DNA of 50,139 nt from NCBI GenBank assembly GCA_937961665.1, contig CALGMO010000064.1:1-50139 (forward strand). Reading direction: 5' to 3'. The position numbers were made by a program, and so were the translations under genes. Positions 45,557 through 50,139 of the stretch are shown here, in pieces. The notes beneath the pieces were generated by a model that saw only the letters and a list, made by a program, of their open reading frames with translations, was not told the DNA's origin and made no database searches. This DNA is from an uncultured Fimbriimonadaceae bacterium. Lineage in GTDB: Bacteria; Armatimonadota; Fimbriimonadia; Fimbriimonadales; Fimbriimonadaceae. Within the stretch, counting starts at the first letter, position 1. Every line of letters begins with the position of its first letter.

Positions 45557-45603
45557 TAGAATTATCGAGGCGGATCTGGGGAGCCGTGCGGCTACGGCTC
45601 CCC
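45557..45603 (+). promoter_or_regulatory. Promoter and leader hairpin of the first subtilase gene
   Basis: TAGAAT at 45557-45562 is a plausible -10 box. A 9-pair hairpin (45578-45586 with 45595-45603) lies in the presumed leader and is followed by GGCTTTT. It could serve as a terminator for the PLP operon, or as an attenuator for the subtilase; which is not clear. Confidence 0.45.
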
Positions 45604-45630
45604 ATGGCTTTTCGTGGCAGGAGGGATGGA

Positions 45631-47361
45631 ATGCGTTCTGGTTCTTGGAGAGCTCTCGTTGCGCTGCTTGCCGGCACACTGGCCCATATGGGGGCAGGAG
45701 CCCCGCCCGATCAGCCGATGGTTCCCGGGCGAGTGCTCGTTCGATTGGCGGCACCCCACACGGAGCCGGCGGCCGGCACCTTGGGCGGGTTGCCGAGCGT
45801 TCCCGAACCCCTCGGCCCCCAAGGGGTATGGATCGTCCGATGCCCGGCCGGGGTGCGCGAGGATGCCTTCGCCGCCCAGTTGCGGCGCCAGCCGGGCGTG
45901 GTCGCGGCCGAGCCGGACGTGCTGTTCCGTATTCAGGCGAAACCCAACGACGCCGCCTATCCCCAGCAGTGGCACTTGCCAATGGTCGGAAGCGAGGAAG
46001 CCTGGGATCTCTCCAAGGGGTCGTCGGCCGTTCTTGTCGCGGTCTTGGACACGGGGGTCGATGGCAACCATCCGGACCTCGCCGGGAAGCTCGAGCCCGG
46101 CTGGAACGTTCTCAACGAGGGTGCCGCTCCGATCGACGACAACGGGCATGGAACCGCGGTCGCCGGGGTCGTGGCGGCGGCGACGAACAACGGCATCGGA
46201 GTGGCATCTCTGGGCTGGGGCTGCCGCATACTGCCGATCAAGGTTGCCGACGCCTCCGGCTGGGCGAGCACCAGCAGCATCTACATGGGGCTCATCTGGG
46301 CCGCGGACCAAGGCGCGAGGGTCGCGAACGTCAGCTTCCGAGTGAGCGAGAACACGTTCGCTTCCTTCGGGATGCAGTACTTCGCCTCCAAAGGCGGGGT
46401 TGTGACGGTGTCAGCGGGCAACCAAGGCGACACCTCCGGCTCCCCCGACAACCCCTACTGCCTCACAGTCGGTGCCACCGACTCCTCCGACCGGGTCGCC
46501 TCCTGGTCGACGAGAGGGAGCATCGTGGATCTGACGGCGCCAGGCGATCGCATTCTCAGCACGAACCGCGGCGGCGGTTACGGAGCGTGGTCCGGAACTT
46601 CCTTCTCGGCCCCGCTCGTCGCTGCGGCTGTCGCACTCGCCTACTCGGCCAAGACCGACCTGACTCCGGAGGCCGCGATGTCGGCGGTCAAGAACGCAGC
46701 CAGAGACCTCGGCCCAGCAGGGTGGGATGCGACCTACGGGCAGGGACGCCTGGACGCGGCCGCAGCCCTGCAGGTTGTCGTTGGAGGATCGCCCAAGGAC
46801 GAGACGCCTCCCCAAGTCGAGTTCGTCGCACCGACGTCGGGCTCGACCGTCCAGGGCGCCGCCGTTGCCGTAGTGATCCGCGCGACGGACGACAGACAGG
46901 TGCGGCGAATCGGTTGGCTGCTCGACGGGGCATCGATGGGCCTAGTCGAAGGCACCGATCGCGTGGAGGCCACATGGAACACCCTGGACTCCATCGACGG
47001 GGTGCACACGCTGGAGGCGGTCGCCGAAGATTCCTCCGGGAACCAAGCAAGGACCGTCATCCAGGTCGTCGTGGCCAACGGAGATCGGAAACCTCCGACG
47101 GTCGTCCTCTCGTCGCCCGCGGACGGTGCCGAATTCGGAGATCGCTTGGCACTGCGTGGGTACGCCAGCGACGAGTCCGGAATCGCCCGCATCGAGGTGT
47201 ACGTGAACGGAAGTCTGAAGGGATACCGCCTGCGCGACACCTTCTCGATGGACCTCTACTCCAAGTACTGGCGCGCGGGCTGGTACACAGTCCGGCTGAA
47301 GGCTTACGATGGGGCCGGCAACTCGGCCGATTCTCAGACCATCTCGGTCCGAAAGCTGTAG
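45631..47361 (+). CDS. Secreted subtilase (S8) with two Ig-like domains
   Basis: A 576-residue secreted serine protease. A signal peptide (about 1-24) is followed by an inhibitor-I9-like propeptide (VPGRVLVRLA ... VVAAEPDVLF, about 31-100). The S8 domain has Asp140 (AVLDTGVD), His173 (NGHGTAVAG), oxyanion Asn264 (SAGN) and Ser324 (GTSFSAP). Two Ig-like modules (about 390-485 and 488-576) end the chain, with PPQVEFVAPTSGSTV and PPTVVLSSPADGAEF starts. Start ATG 45631 follows AGGAGGG by 5 nt. The second subtilase at 48016 is a paralogue with more Ig modules. Role is probably extracellular protein degradation or surface-protein processing. Confidence 0.93.
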   Translation: MRSGSWRALVALLAGTLAHMGAGAPPDQPMVPGRVLVRLAAPHTEPAAGTLGGLPSVPEPLGPQGVWIVRCPAGVREDAFAAQLRRQPGVVAAEPDVLFRIQAKPNDAAYPQQWHLPMVGSEEAWDLSKGSSAVLVAVLDTGVDGNHPDLAGKLEPGWNVLNEGAAPIDDNGHGTAVAGVVAAATNNGIGVASLGWGCRILPIKVADASGWASTSSIYMGLIWAADQGARVANVSFRVSENTFASFGMQYFASKGGVVTVSAGNQGDTSGSPDNPYCLTVGATDSSDRVASWSTRGSIVDLTAPGDRILSTNRGGGYGAWSGTSFSAPLVAAAVALAYSAKTDLTPEAAMSAVKNAARDLGPAGWDATYGQGRLDAAAALQVVVGGSPKDETPPQVEFVAPTSGSTVQGAAVAVVIRATDDRQVRRIGWLLDGASMGLVEGTDRVEATWNTLDSIDGVHTLEAVAEDSSGNQARTVIQVVVANGDRKPPTVVLSSPADGAEFGDRLALRGYASDESGIARIEVYVNGSLKGYRLRDTFSMDLYSKYWRAGWYTVRLKAYDGAGNSADSQTISVRKL

Positions 47362-47425: not shown

Positions 47426-47752
47426 CTAGGCCGAGTAGTCCATGAACGGGTACTCGGCCGTGGTGGAGACCTTGCGCCGCTCGTGCCGAAGCTGCCTCGC
47501 GCACGCCTCCAAGAAGCGGCTCGCTCTCATGCGAAGTCTGGCGAGGTCCCGGTACAGAGAGCTTTTCGGACTCTGGGAAAGCAACGCCTGCCAGAAGCGG
47601 TGCTCATAGAACAAAGCCTTCTCGCGGTTGTGCCTCGCGAGCCGCAGCAAGGCTTCCGCCTTCTCCTCCGGCGCGCCGGTAGAGCTGAGGACCCGACGGA
47701 CGATGGCCCTAACGAGCGGCGAGAGTCGCCGTTCGATACGCTGGTGCTTCAC
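47426..47752 (-). CDS. Unrecognised 108-residue protein under c-di-AMP riboswitch control
   Basis: The protein is basic, Arg/Leu-rich and predicted all-helical (RRLSPLVRAIVRRVL, EEKAEALLRLARHNREKALF, LYRDLARLRMRASRFLEACA), with a less ordered tail ending in PFMDYSA. It has no signal peptide, membrane segment or known motif that I can see. GTG 47752 is chosen because AGGAGG lies 8 nt upstream; longer in-frame readings run into the riboswitch. A c-di-AMP aptamer sits directly upstream, so its level should respond to that second messenger, which in other bacteria governs osmotic balance and wall metabolism. Convergent with the first subtilase and divergent from the second. Confidence 0.65.
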   Translation of the reverse strand: MKHQRIERRLSPLVRAIVRRVLSSTGAPEEKAEALLRLARHNREKALFYEHRFWQALLSQSPKSSLYRDLARLRMRASRFLEACARQLRHERRKVSTTAEYPFMDYSA

Positions 47753-47802
47753 GTTGCATGCCTCCTGTCGATTGCGGTCGGAGAGAATGCACGCATTCTC
47801 TT

Positions 47803-47913
47803 TCGATGCGCCTACGAGGTTAGCTGACGGGCTAGAGCCGAAAGTACTCTCCCTGATGGGTTCGCCCCGAAGACCGGTTCCCCCGTTCCGAGCGAAGCTC
47901 GGATTCGGCTTCT
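47803..47913 (-). promoter_or_regulatory. Cyclic-di-AMP (ydaO-yuaA) riboswitch
   Basis: On the minus strand the conserved elements appear in the right order: GCCGAATCCG (47909-47900), a CCGAGC/GCTCGG hairpin, GGGGGAACCGG, GGGGCGAACCCATCAGGG, an AGAG/CTCT hairpin, and the hallmark CCCGTCAGCTAACCTCGTAGGC (ending near 47810). GCC and GGC close the fold. Downstream, two overlapping hairpins compete: GCGCAT with ATGCGT, which uses bases next to the closing helix, and AGAGAATGC with GCATTCTCT. They lie before AGGAGG and could be the switching part. There is no T-tract, so control of translation is more likely than of termination. A TACACT -10 box is at 47922-47917. Confidence 0.92.
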
Positions 47914-48015
47914 TGCAGTGTAGCTCCCGTGTCCCTTTGCCGATGGGACCCGTGGGCGTCAAGACCAGCACTTTGGCTGAACGGGGGCAGATCCGCCTCG
48001 CGGAATCCCTTTCCC

Positions 48016-50139
48016 ATGGAAGCTGCTCGATTCCTACAAGCACTTTGCCGCCTGGGGCGCGCGGCGGGGGTCGTCTTCCTCGCGGCTGGCGCCTGCGTCG
48101 GATGGACCGCCCCCAAGTGCGTTCCGGGGCGCGTGCTCGTTGTGTTCAACACCCCGCTGGAGCGTGGCCTCCTGAGGGCTCCGAACCTGTTGGGGGCCCG
48201 ACCCGTTGCGCGACTGGGGCACGGGGAGGCGCTGGTGCTCGCGGTCCCGAAGGGAGCGGACGAGGCGGCCTTCGCTCGGCAGCTCTCCCGTGACCCCTTG
48301 GTGAGGATCGCGGAGCCCGACTACCTGTTCGAGCCGCAGGCGACGCCGAACGACCCGCAGTTCCCCAACCAGTGGCACCTGGCCAAGATCCAGGCGCCCC
48401 AGGCTTGGGACCTGTCCAAAGGCAGCCAGCAGGTGGTCATCGCGATCATCGACAGCGGCGTCGACCCCAACCACCCCGACCTCGCGCCCAAGCTCGTGCC
48501 GGGCTGGAACGTCCTCAACGGAACCTCCAGCTGGGCCGACGACAACGGCCACGGGACGGCCGTGGCAGGGGCCGCGGCCGCCGCCACCAACAACGCCGTC
48601 GGCGTCGCGGGCGTCGCTTGGAACTGCCGCATCATGCCCGTCAAGGCCGCCGGCGCCGACGGGTACGCGTCCTCCAGCTCGCTATACAACGGGCTCGTGT
48701 GGGCCGCCGACAACGGGGCCAGGGTCGCCAACCTCAGCTTCAAGGTCACCGACAACTCCTTCGTCACGATGGGGATGCAGCACTTCGTCTCCAAGGGGGG
48801 CGTGGTGACCGTGTCCGCCGGCAACGACTCCGCCCAGGCCACGACGCCCGACAACCCGAACTGCCTCACCGTCGTCGCCACCGACTCGGCCGACCAGAAG
48901 GCCTCCTGGTCCGCCTGCGGCAGCAACGTCGACCTCTCGGCACCGGGGACCGGCATCCTCACCACCAGCAGGGGCGGAGGGTACGGGAGCTGGGCGGGCA
49001 CCTCGTTCTCCGCGCCGATCGTCGCCGGGGCTGCGGGCATCCTCCTGTCCGTGAACCCCAGCCTCACGCCGAACGAGGTCATGCAGATTCTGAAGGACAC
49101 CGCCGACGACCTCGGGGCGGCGGGCAGGGACAACACCTACGGAACTGGGAGGCTGAACCTGCGGAAGGCCGTCGTGGGCGCTCTGCAGACGCTCGACGAC
49201 CAGGAGGAGCCCACAGTCTCGATCAACGCGCCGACGTCGCTGAGCGGCACCGTGCAGGTCACCGTGAACGCTTCGGACAACGTGTACGTCGACTCGGTGG
49301 ACCTGTACGTCGGCGGCAATCTCATTGGACGGTCGACTACCTCGCCGGCGACGTTCACGTGGGACACCACGACGGTGCCGAACGGCAACCACCTGCTGGT
49401 GGCGAAGGCTCGGGACCTGAAGTCGAACGAGGGCTATGCCGAGCTGCCCGTCTCGGTTCGGAACGGAGACGCGCAGGCCCCGCAGGTGTCGTTCATCAAT
49501 CCGACCAACGGGGCGAACCTGTGGGGACGCCTCCGCGTGCGCATCAACGCCCAGGACAACACGGCCGTCCGAACGGTGCGGTTCTTCGTGGACAACACGC
49601 TGATCCGGACCTTCACGGCCGCTCCTTACGAGATGGACTGGAGCTCCGCCTCCGTTCCGGACGGCAGCCACACGCTCCGCGCCGTGGCCGAGGACACCTC
49701 GGGCAACCAAGCTACGGCTCAGGTGAGCGTGCAGGTGGTGAACTACGTCGACAACGTGCCGCCGACCGTGTCCTTCCGGTTCCCGCGCACCGGCCAGAGG
49801 ATCAACGGCGGGGTGGTGCTGAGCGTGGACGCCCAAGATGACCGAGCGGTGCGTTACGTCCGCCTCTATCTGAACGGCACCCTGCTGCGCACCTTCACCT
49901 CCGGCCCGTACGAGATGAACTGGAGCACCAGGTCGGTGCCCGATGGATCCTACACGCTGCGCGCGGAGGCGGTGGACGGCTTGGGCAACACGGCGAGCGA
50001 CACCGTGACGGTGACCGTCGACAACTCGTCGGTCGCCTACGAAGACAACGAAGCGCCGGTGGTGTCGTTCGTGAACCCGACCAACGGGCAGACCGTCTCG
50101 GGCACGCTGGCGATCCGCATCGAGGGCCGCGACAACGTG
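48016..50139 (+). CDS. Secreted subtilase (S8) with tandem Ig-like domains, cut by the window end
   Basis: At least 708 codons, open at the right edge. A signal-peptide-like start (about 1-30, with VVFLAAGACVGW) is followed by a propeptide (VPGRVLVVF ... VRIAEPDYLF) and a complete S8 domain: Asp146 (AIIDSGVD), His179 (NGHGTAVAG), Asn270 (SAGND) and Ser330 (GTSFSAP). Then come at least four Ig-like modules of about 85-100 residues. It is clearly paralogous to the subtilase at 45631 over the whole catalytic part and shares 'PNHPDL', 'PGWNVLN' and 'GGGYG' blocks. ATG 48016 has no Shine-Dalgarno. The array of Ig modules suggests a long, surface-extended protease or adhesin. Confidence 0.92.
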   Translation, partial: MEAARFLQALCRLGRAAGVVFLAAGACVGWTAPKCVPGRVLVVFNTPLERGLLRAPNLLGARPVARLGHGEALVLAVPKGADEAAFARQLSRDPLVRIAEPDYLFEPQATPNDPQFPNQWHLAKIQAPQAWDLSKGSQQVVIAIIDSGVDPNHPDLAPKLVPGWNVLNGTSSWADDNGHGTAVAGAAAAATNNAVGVAGVAWNCRIMPVKAAGADGYASSSSLYNGLVWAADNGARVANLSFKVTDNSFVTMGMQHFVSKGGVVTVSAGNDSAQATTPDNPNCLTVVATDSADQKASWSACGSNVDLSAPGTGILTTSRGGGYGSWAGTSFSAPIVAGAAGILLSVNPSLTPNEVMQILKDTADDLGAAGRDNTYGTGRLNLRKAVVGALQTLDDQEEPTVSINAPTSLSGTVQVTVNASDNVYVDSVDLYVGGNLIGRSTTSPATFTWDTTTVPNGNHLLVAKARDLKSNEGYAELPVSVRNGDAQAPQVSFINPTNGANLWGRLRVRINAQDNTAVRTVRFFVDNTLIRTFTAAPYEMDWSSASVPDGSHTLRAVAEDTSGNQATAQVSVQVVNYVDNVPPTVSFRFPRTGQRINGGVVLSVDAQDDRAVRYVRLYLNGTLLRTFTSGPYEMNWSTRSVPDGSYTLRAEAVDGLGNTASDTVTVTVDNSSVAYEDNEAPVVSFVNPTNGQTVSGTLAIRIEGRDNV
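49204..50139 (+). repeat. Tandem Ig-like (Big-type) protein repeats
   Basis: Four successive modules begin near 49204, 49471, 49756 and 50050, the last incomplete. Each starts with a P-x-V-S-(F/I) strand, has S-x-D/A-x-D-N/D in the middle, then (T/R)TFT(S/A)(G/A)PYEM(N/D)WS and VPDGS(H/Y)TLRA, and ends with G-N. Modules 2 and 3 are especially alike at protein and DNA level, consistent with recent duplication. Confidence 0.85.

Follow-up and report, generated by a model that had tools for sequence, protein, structure and literature searches.

The minus strand of the window (the whole stretch of 50,139 nucleotides that was analyzed) carries a complete c-di-AMP riboswitch aptamer immediately upstream of a gene for a small, basic protein of 108 residues, called P0001, whose family is undescribed as far as the libraries searched show. 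By a narrow balance, we favor a model wherein this RNA functions as a translational c-di-AMP switch over a single small cytoplasmic protein of this family, with the gene turned OFF by the ligand and the protein acting as an adaptor or regulator.

A complete RF00379 aptamer in Armatimonadota

The aptamer resides at 47793..47920 (-), where an Infernal search against all Rfam models aligns it with positions 1-134 of the 134-position model for the ydaO/yuaA leader (RF00379). The score of 73.8 bits (E 2.3e-15) compares with a curated gathering cut-off of 38 bits, and the 50 kb window holds no other gathering-level Rfam match. The conserved bases GGGGGAACC, GGGGCGAA and CCCGUCAGCUAACCUCG are present, as are the core elements GGGG.GAA and CAGCUAACCuCG and the P1 stem, whose base includes one non-standard pair. 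A first-pass annotation, made from the DNA letters without database searches, had proposed a ydaO-yuaA aptamer with its hallmark bases and had called for a covariance search, and the strong match over the full model length bears out this proposal. Judged by sequence, this RNA adds a new member to an established riboswitch class, with which it shares a complete aptamer, all helices, the conserved core, the tail pseudoknot and a location in a 5' leader near a strong ribosome-binding site. The usual targets of RF00379 are wall hydrolases, resuscitation factors, and potassium and osmolyte transporters. In contrast, the target here is a small protein without a recognized family, the host belongs to Armatimonadota, and the leader has no visible terminator.

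The source genome (an assembly of 2.88 Mb in 142 contigs) encodes a diadenylate cyclase (PF02457, one domain, E 9.5e-40), and thus the c-di-AMP signal is expected to be present. A literature search returned no paper on a c-di-AMP riboswitch in Armatimonadota, nor one on ydaO in Fimbriimonas.

The gene under probable riboswitch control

P0001 is encoded at 47426..47752 (-), from a GTG start at 47752 to a UAG stop, and this assignment draws on a homologue in another genome of the same genus (G002), on the pattern of codon-position changes and on family profiles. A subtilase gene on the opposite strand lies to its left (45586-47361), and a subtilase-type gene occupies the other flank of the locus (47929-50139). 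These two flanking genes are related to each other, and the same arrangement is kept in G002. Because the left neighbor is on the opposite strand, the 108-residue frame is the only gene that the transcript can plausibly serve, and the transcript is probably monocistronic. The earlier view that P0001 is the sole gene that the aptamer can control therefore stands for the window locus, but it does not extend to relatives that carry tandem copies or operons with Tad1/Acb2-like genes.

The protein has a calculated pI of 11.2 and a charge of about +13 at pH 7. No Pfam family matches it at the curated cut-off (best E 0.084), and neither NCBIfam nor the PDB families yield a match, in agreement with the first impression of a protein without a recognized family. 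The weak Pfam matches, which fall far under the cut-off, and an NCBIfam match to FixL found for two family members (best E 0.00035) were set aside as coiled-helix noise. AlphaFold models exhibit three or four helices with pLDDT values of 60 and 65, the first having been built on a poorly aligned two-sequence alignment (A6); at this low confidence they support a helical protein and nothing finer. Comparison with the G002 gene over 108 codons reveals 45, 38 and 61 differences at codon positions 1, 2 and 3, respectively. Third positions are the most variable, and so the frame behaves as a protein-coding gene; on this sequence evidence we regard it as real. The only invariant column in alignment A1 is K31, and the best-conserved positions include several basic residues (in A1, K31 and R74; in alignment A2, K24, R26 and R76).

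The pairing of riboswitch and protein recurs in relatives

When 100 relatives were searched with the single protein, the only clear homologue was that of G002, which is 55% identical. Two subtilase genes flank its gene, which follows its own 73.4-bit aptamer at a distance of 35 nt; this aptamer is 88% identical to that of the window. We then collected the DNA around all 118 RF00379 matches of the bacterial family (85 genomes), which yielded 838 downstream ORFs, and searched these iteratively with profiles that started from P0001 and from three further proteins encoded downstream of riboswitches. The profiles converge on overlapping sets, and a member of the resulting small-protein family is located behind 47 of the 118 riboswitches, in most cases within 70 nt of the aptamer and usually at 20-62 nt. 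No match was obtained among 1943 control ORFs located upstream or on the reverse strand. P0001 itself, which starts 40 nt past its aptamer, is recovered by the profiles P0001, A, Bx and C.

Whole-genome profile searches in the bacterial family produced 16 matches to branch B, to which P0001 belongs, and 30 to branch A. A second family of the order contributes six branch-A matches, every one behind an aptamer of 74-88 bits. Across the two families, 45 of the 52 matches lie in a riboswitch transcript, and the remaining seven comprise five branch-A genes and one branch-B gene without an aptamer and one gene with half an aptamer. The six copies that have no upstream riboswitch indicate that the pairing is not obligatory. 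The half aptamer (L124, G024:C76) consists of the 5' half only (...GCGGGGGAACC) and runs straight into the coding sequence of a branch-B gene; perhaps it reflects an assembly break or a deletion.

Full matches are absent outside the taxonomic class of the host across 291 genomes of the phylum, and no branch-B relatives were found in viral contigs. A search of genome contigs with central relatives (A5) returned one match, the Armatimonadetes MAG contig CALMEF010000097.1 (L132), which is apparently the relative G024:C97. Branches A and B align by hhalign with a probability of 80 (E 1.5e-5). Profiles of short helical proteins may drift as they are iterated; the grouping of branches A, B and C into one family therefore depends on the control ORFs and the hhalign comparison rather than on high identity. 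The homologue search proposed at the outset thus finds the reading frame conserved behind the aptamer in G002 and in other relatives. The family, whose members have about 85-140 residues and probably three helices, is so far confined to two families within a single order of Armatimonadota, where it is usually encoded right behind RF00379. This recurrence points to an undescribed protein family governed by c-di-AMP.

Other riboswitches of the source genome

The source genome carries three RF00379 matches in total. The second riboswitch (86 bits; L001:1501-1972, G000:C52:3822-4290) precedes a branch-A protein that is a distant paralogue of P0001, and the third (L002, G000:C94:17542-17677) is located about 200 nt ahead of hisB in a histidine operon. 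The arrangement before hisB recurs in about 20-25 loci of the bacterial family, and a link between c-di-AMP and histidine genes looks unusual. Many hisB leaders carry AGCACCUCCUGU(U)G, part of which is identical to the 16S anti-Shine-Dalgarno sequence, and in the examples read (downstream of G101:C1:4755761-4755896 and G027:C1:431177-431313) this conserved element precedes a hairpin and its U-rich tail. CACCTCC occurs in 40 of the 118 regions downstream of riboswitches.

Architecture of the leader

A putative -10 box, TACACT (47917..47922, (-)), lies before the aptamer, as the first-pass annotation had pointed out. A promoter scanner reported no full sigma-70 promoter at this site. However, TANNNT recurs at matching spacing before P1 in the family loci (a peak of 15 loci at -13) and occurs within 20 nt in 38 of 117 loci, compared to 23.6 in shuffled sequences. 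Because of this recurrence, TACACT is a plausible -10 box for the aptamer transcript.

An aptamer loop with the sequence CUUUCGG (47838..47844, (-)) has 7-bp complementarity to a tail segment, UCGAAAG (47800..47806, (-)), and these would form the 5' and 3' strands, respectively, of a pseudoknot. The tail segment lies after P1, and its last G doubles as the opening base of the next hairpin. Equivalent loop-tail complementarity recurs in most other loci. This predicted expression-platform hairpin, GAGAAUGC-GU-GCAUUCUC, spans 8 bp (47783..47800, (-)) between the aptamer and the ribosome-binding site. In branch B it adjoins the pseudoknot strand, its 5' arm starts with GAG, and 90.9% of its alignment cells are paired, versus 41-66% when the hairpin is slid along the alignment. 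Three pairs are changed on both sides, a number reached by 7 of 500 shuffles, which amounts to modest covariation support from 11 sequences. Beyond the hairpin, a Shine-Dalgarno sequence AGGAGG (47761..47766, (-)) resides 8 nt before the GTG codon at 47752, just past the aptamer as originally described, and Shine-Dalgarno sequences are likewise strong in most related loci. Free-energy folding detected no unusual stability of the leader as a whole (z -0.68).

Proposed level and direction of control

No terminator was found in the leader between the aptamer and the gene start, and therefore translation is the likely level at which the riboswitch acts on P0001. The proximity of AGGAGG to the start codon also counts in favor of translational control. 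A precedent exists in the ydaO-type riboswitch for nlpC of Corynebacterium glutamicum, which is likewise thought to act on translation (PMC9960051), although that RNA regulates a cell-wall peptidase whereas the target in the window is an undescribed helical protein.

In the mechanism that we propose, c-di-AMP binding would promote formation of P1 and of the tail pseudoknot, which would compete with the base of the following platform hairpin. A pyrimidine-rich stretch between the hairpin and the Shine-Dalgarno sequence would then be freed to cover the latter, such that the P0001 gene would be OFF when c-di-AMP is high and the protein would be made when c-di-AMP falls. We consider this competition, and the OFF response that it implies, fairly probable. 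The direction was chosen mainly because characterized ydaO-class switches are described as OFF switches (PMC9960051).

Two folding proxies for the accessibility of the Shine-Dalgarno sequence disagree on direction, and these models do not fix whether the switch is OFF or ON. In the local proxy, the pseudoknot reduces access in 15 loci and increases it in four, whereas in the whole-leader proxy, which leaves pseudoknots outside the model, mean access is 0.38 for the free RNA versus 0.42 for the bound RNA (p 0.12). Neither proxy gives a useful change in access for the window locus. An ON switch with the same anatomy, wherein the free RNA masks the Shine-Dalgarno sequence, by the conserved ACCUC in the aptamer core or by the platform hairpin, until c-di-AMP releases it, is rather unlikely. 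Such a switch would agree with unconstrained folds that pair the Shine-Dalgarno sequence into the aptamer in several loci (0.78 in G002 and 0.70 in G106), and with the finding that an imposed aptamer raises access by >0.1 in 17 loci and lowers it in nine. The overall difference, however, is not significant and comes from a model without pseudoknots, the local proxy leans the opposite way, and those ydaO-type RNAs that have been characterized act as OFF switches. We give almost no weight to the view that a decayed aptamer remnant precedes a reading frame that is open by chance. Although the aptamer score is among the lower ones of the bacterial family and the promoter match is weak, a full-length match so far above the cut-off, the retention of pseudoknot and hairpin in G002 with an 88% identical aptamer, and the codon-position bias and family conservation of P0001 all speak against decay.

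A conserved C-terminal tail and a possible function of P0001

P0001 ends in EYPFMDYSA (47429..47455, (-)), which fits a short conserved branch motif, PFM[E/D][Y/F]S[S/A], that emerges from alignments A1 and A4 and from a whole-genome pattern scan. Nine members in the branch-B alignment end in a tail of the type PFM[E/D/Q][Y/F]S[S/A], and the linker between the helices and this tail varies in length. At the DNA level the pattern occurs 11 times in the 85 genomes, and nine of these occurrences are branch-B members, including the gene at G024:C76 with half an aptamer. The two others were rejected as family members, because the frame runs through stops in G115 and the open stretch at G012:C8 is only short. 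Docking peptides typically take the form of a short conserved motif after a linker of variable length, and the tail may serve as one. Since branch A lacks the motif, the tail can account for only part of the small-protein family.

Our tentative proposal, to which we assign somewhat less than even probability, is that P0001 acts as a small adaptor or regulator, which would bind a partner protein through its helical body and tail. It is improbable, by comparison, that P0001 is itself a c-di-AMP receptor or buffer, the candidate effector of the first-pass annotation, whose level is set by a riboswitch for the same ligand. The constant pairing with the riboswitch would suit such a role, as would the Tad1/Acb2-like genes in the operons of relatives (16 of 118 riboswitches), which belong to a superfamily that includes cyclic-nucleotide sponges; Acb2 of phage T4 has a Kd of about 62 nM for 2',3'-c-di-AMP (PMC12657218). 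Nevertheless, P0001 is unrelated to Tad1/Acb2 (hhalign probability 0.1) and has no Pfam, NCBIfam or PDB relative, its alignment A1 has a single invariant column (K31) with no evident nucleotide-binding motif, and the source genome is devoid of any Tad1-like gene. Less probable still is a nucleic-acid-binding or ribosome-associated protein that is switched on or off through c-di-AMP during potassium or osmotic stress. The strong positive charge and the conservation of basic residues fit this role, but the protein matches no family that binds DNA or RNA, its tail motif lacks basic character, and by eye branch C members appear less basic. An adaptor or regulator therefore remains our preferred assignment for P0001.

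Tad1/Acb2-like genes in related operons

The Tad1/Acb2-like ORF that is present in 16 of the 118 riboswitch loci often lies right behind the small-protein gene. These ORFs match Tad1 structures (8kbb, E 2.1e-11; 7uav, E 4.3e-7) and PHROG 2428. Similar genes occupy 74 places in 63 of the 85 family genomes (for example G059:C1:614056-614379), and thus they are ordinary chromosomal genes in this bacterial family; a rough estimate of the number expected by chance to follow an aptamer within 1.2 kb is only ~0.04 of the 74. Many of the chromosomal proteins share a conserved N-terminus (MSENMEKFRHMDGS), and a viral contig (IMG/VR, L131:2001-2249) encodes a Tad1/Acb2-like protein that is 42% identical to them. 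P0001 is not a member of this superfamily: hhalign comparison of A1 with the alignment A3 gives the near-zero probability cited above, and Tad1 structures are absent from the PDB matches of A1. Given that the source genome has no Tad1-like gene, the link bears on the small-protein family and not directly on the window locus.

Biological meaning

The riboswitch marks the small-protein family as part of the c-di-AMP response of Armatimonadota and, through guilt by regulation, offers a handle on a protein family without a known relative. Some relatives tie this family to Tad1/Acb2-like proteins, members of a superfamily of cyclic-nucleotide sponges so far known mainly from phages. It is conceivable, though doubtful, that the small proteins and the Tad1/Acb2-like proteins of these operons together form a native c-di-AMP buffering and response module of Armatimonadota. 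If so, riboswitch, sponge and small adaptor would operate under one control, and the module would represent a cellular counterpart of the tools that phages use against nucleotide-signal immunity.
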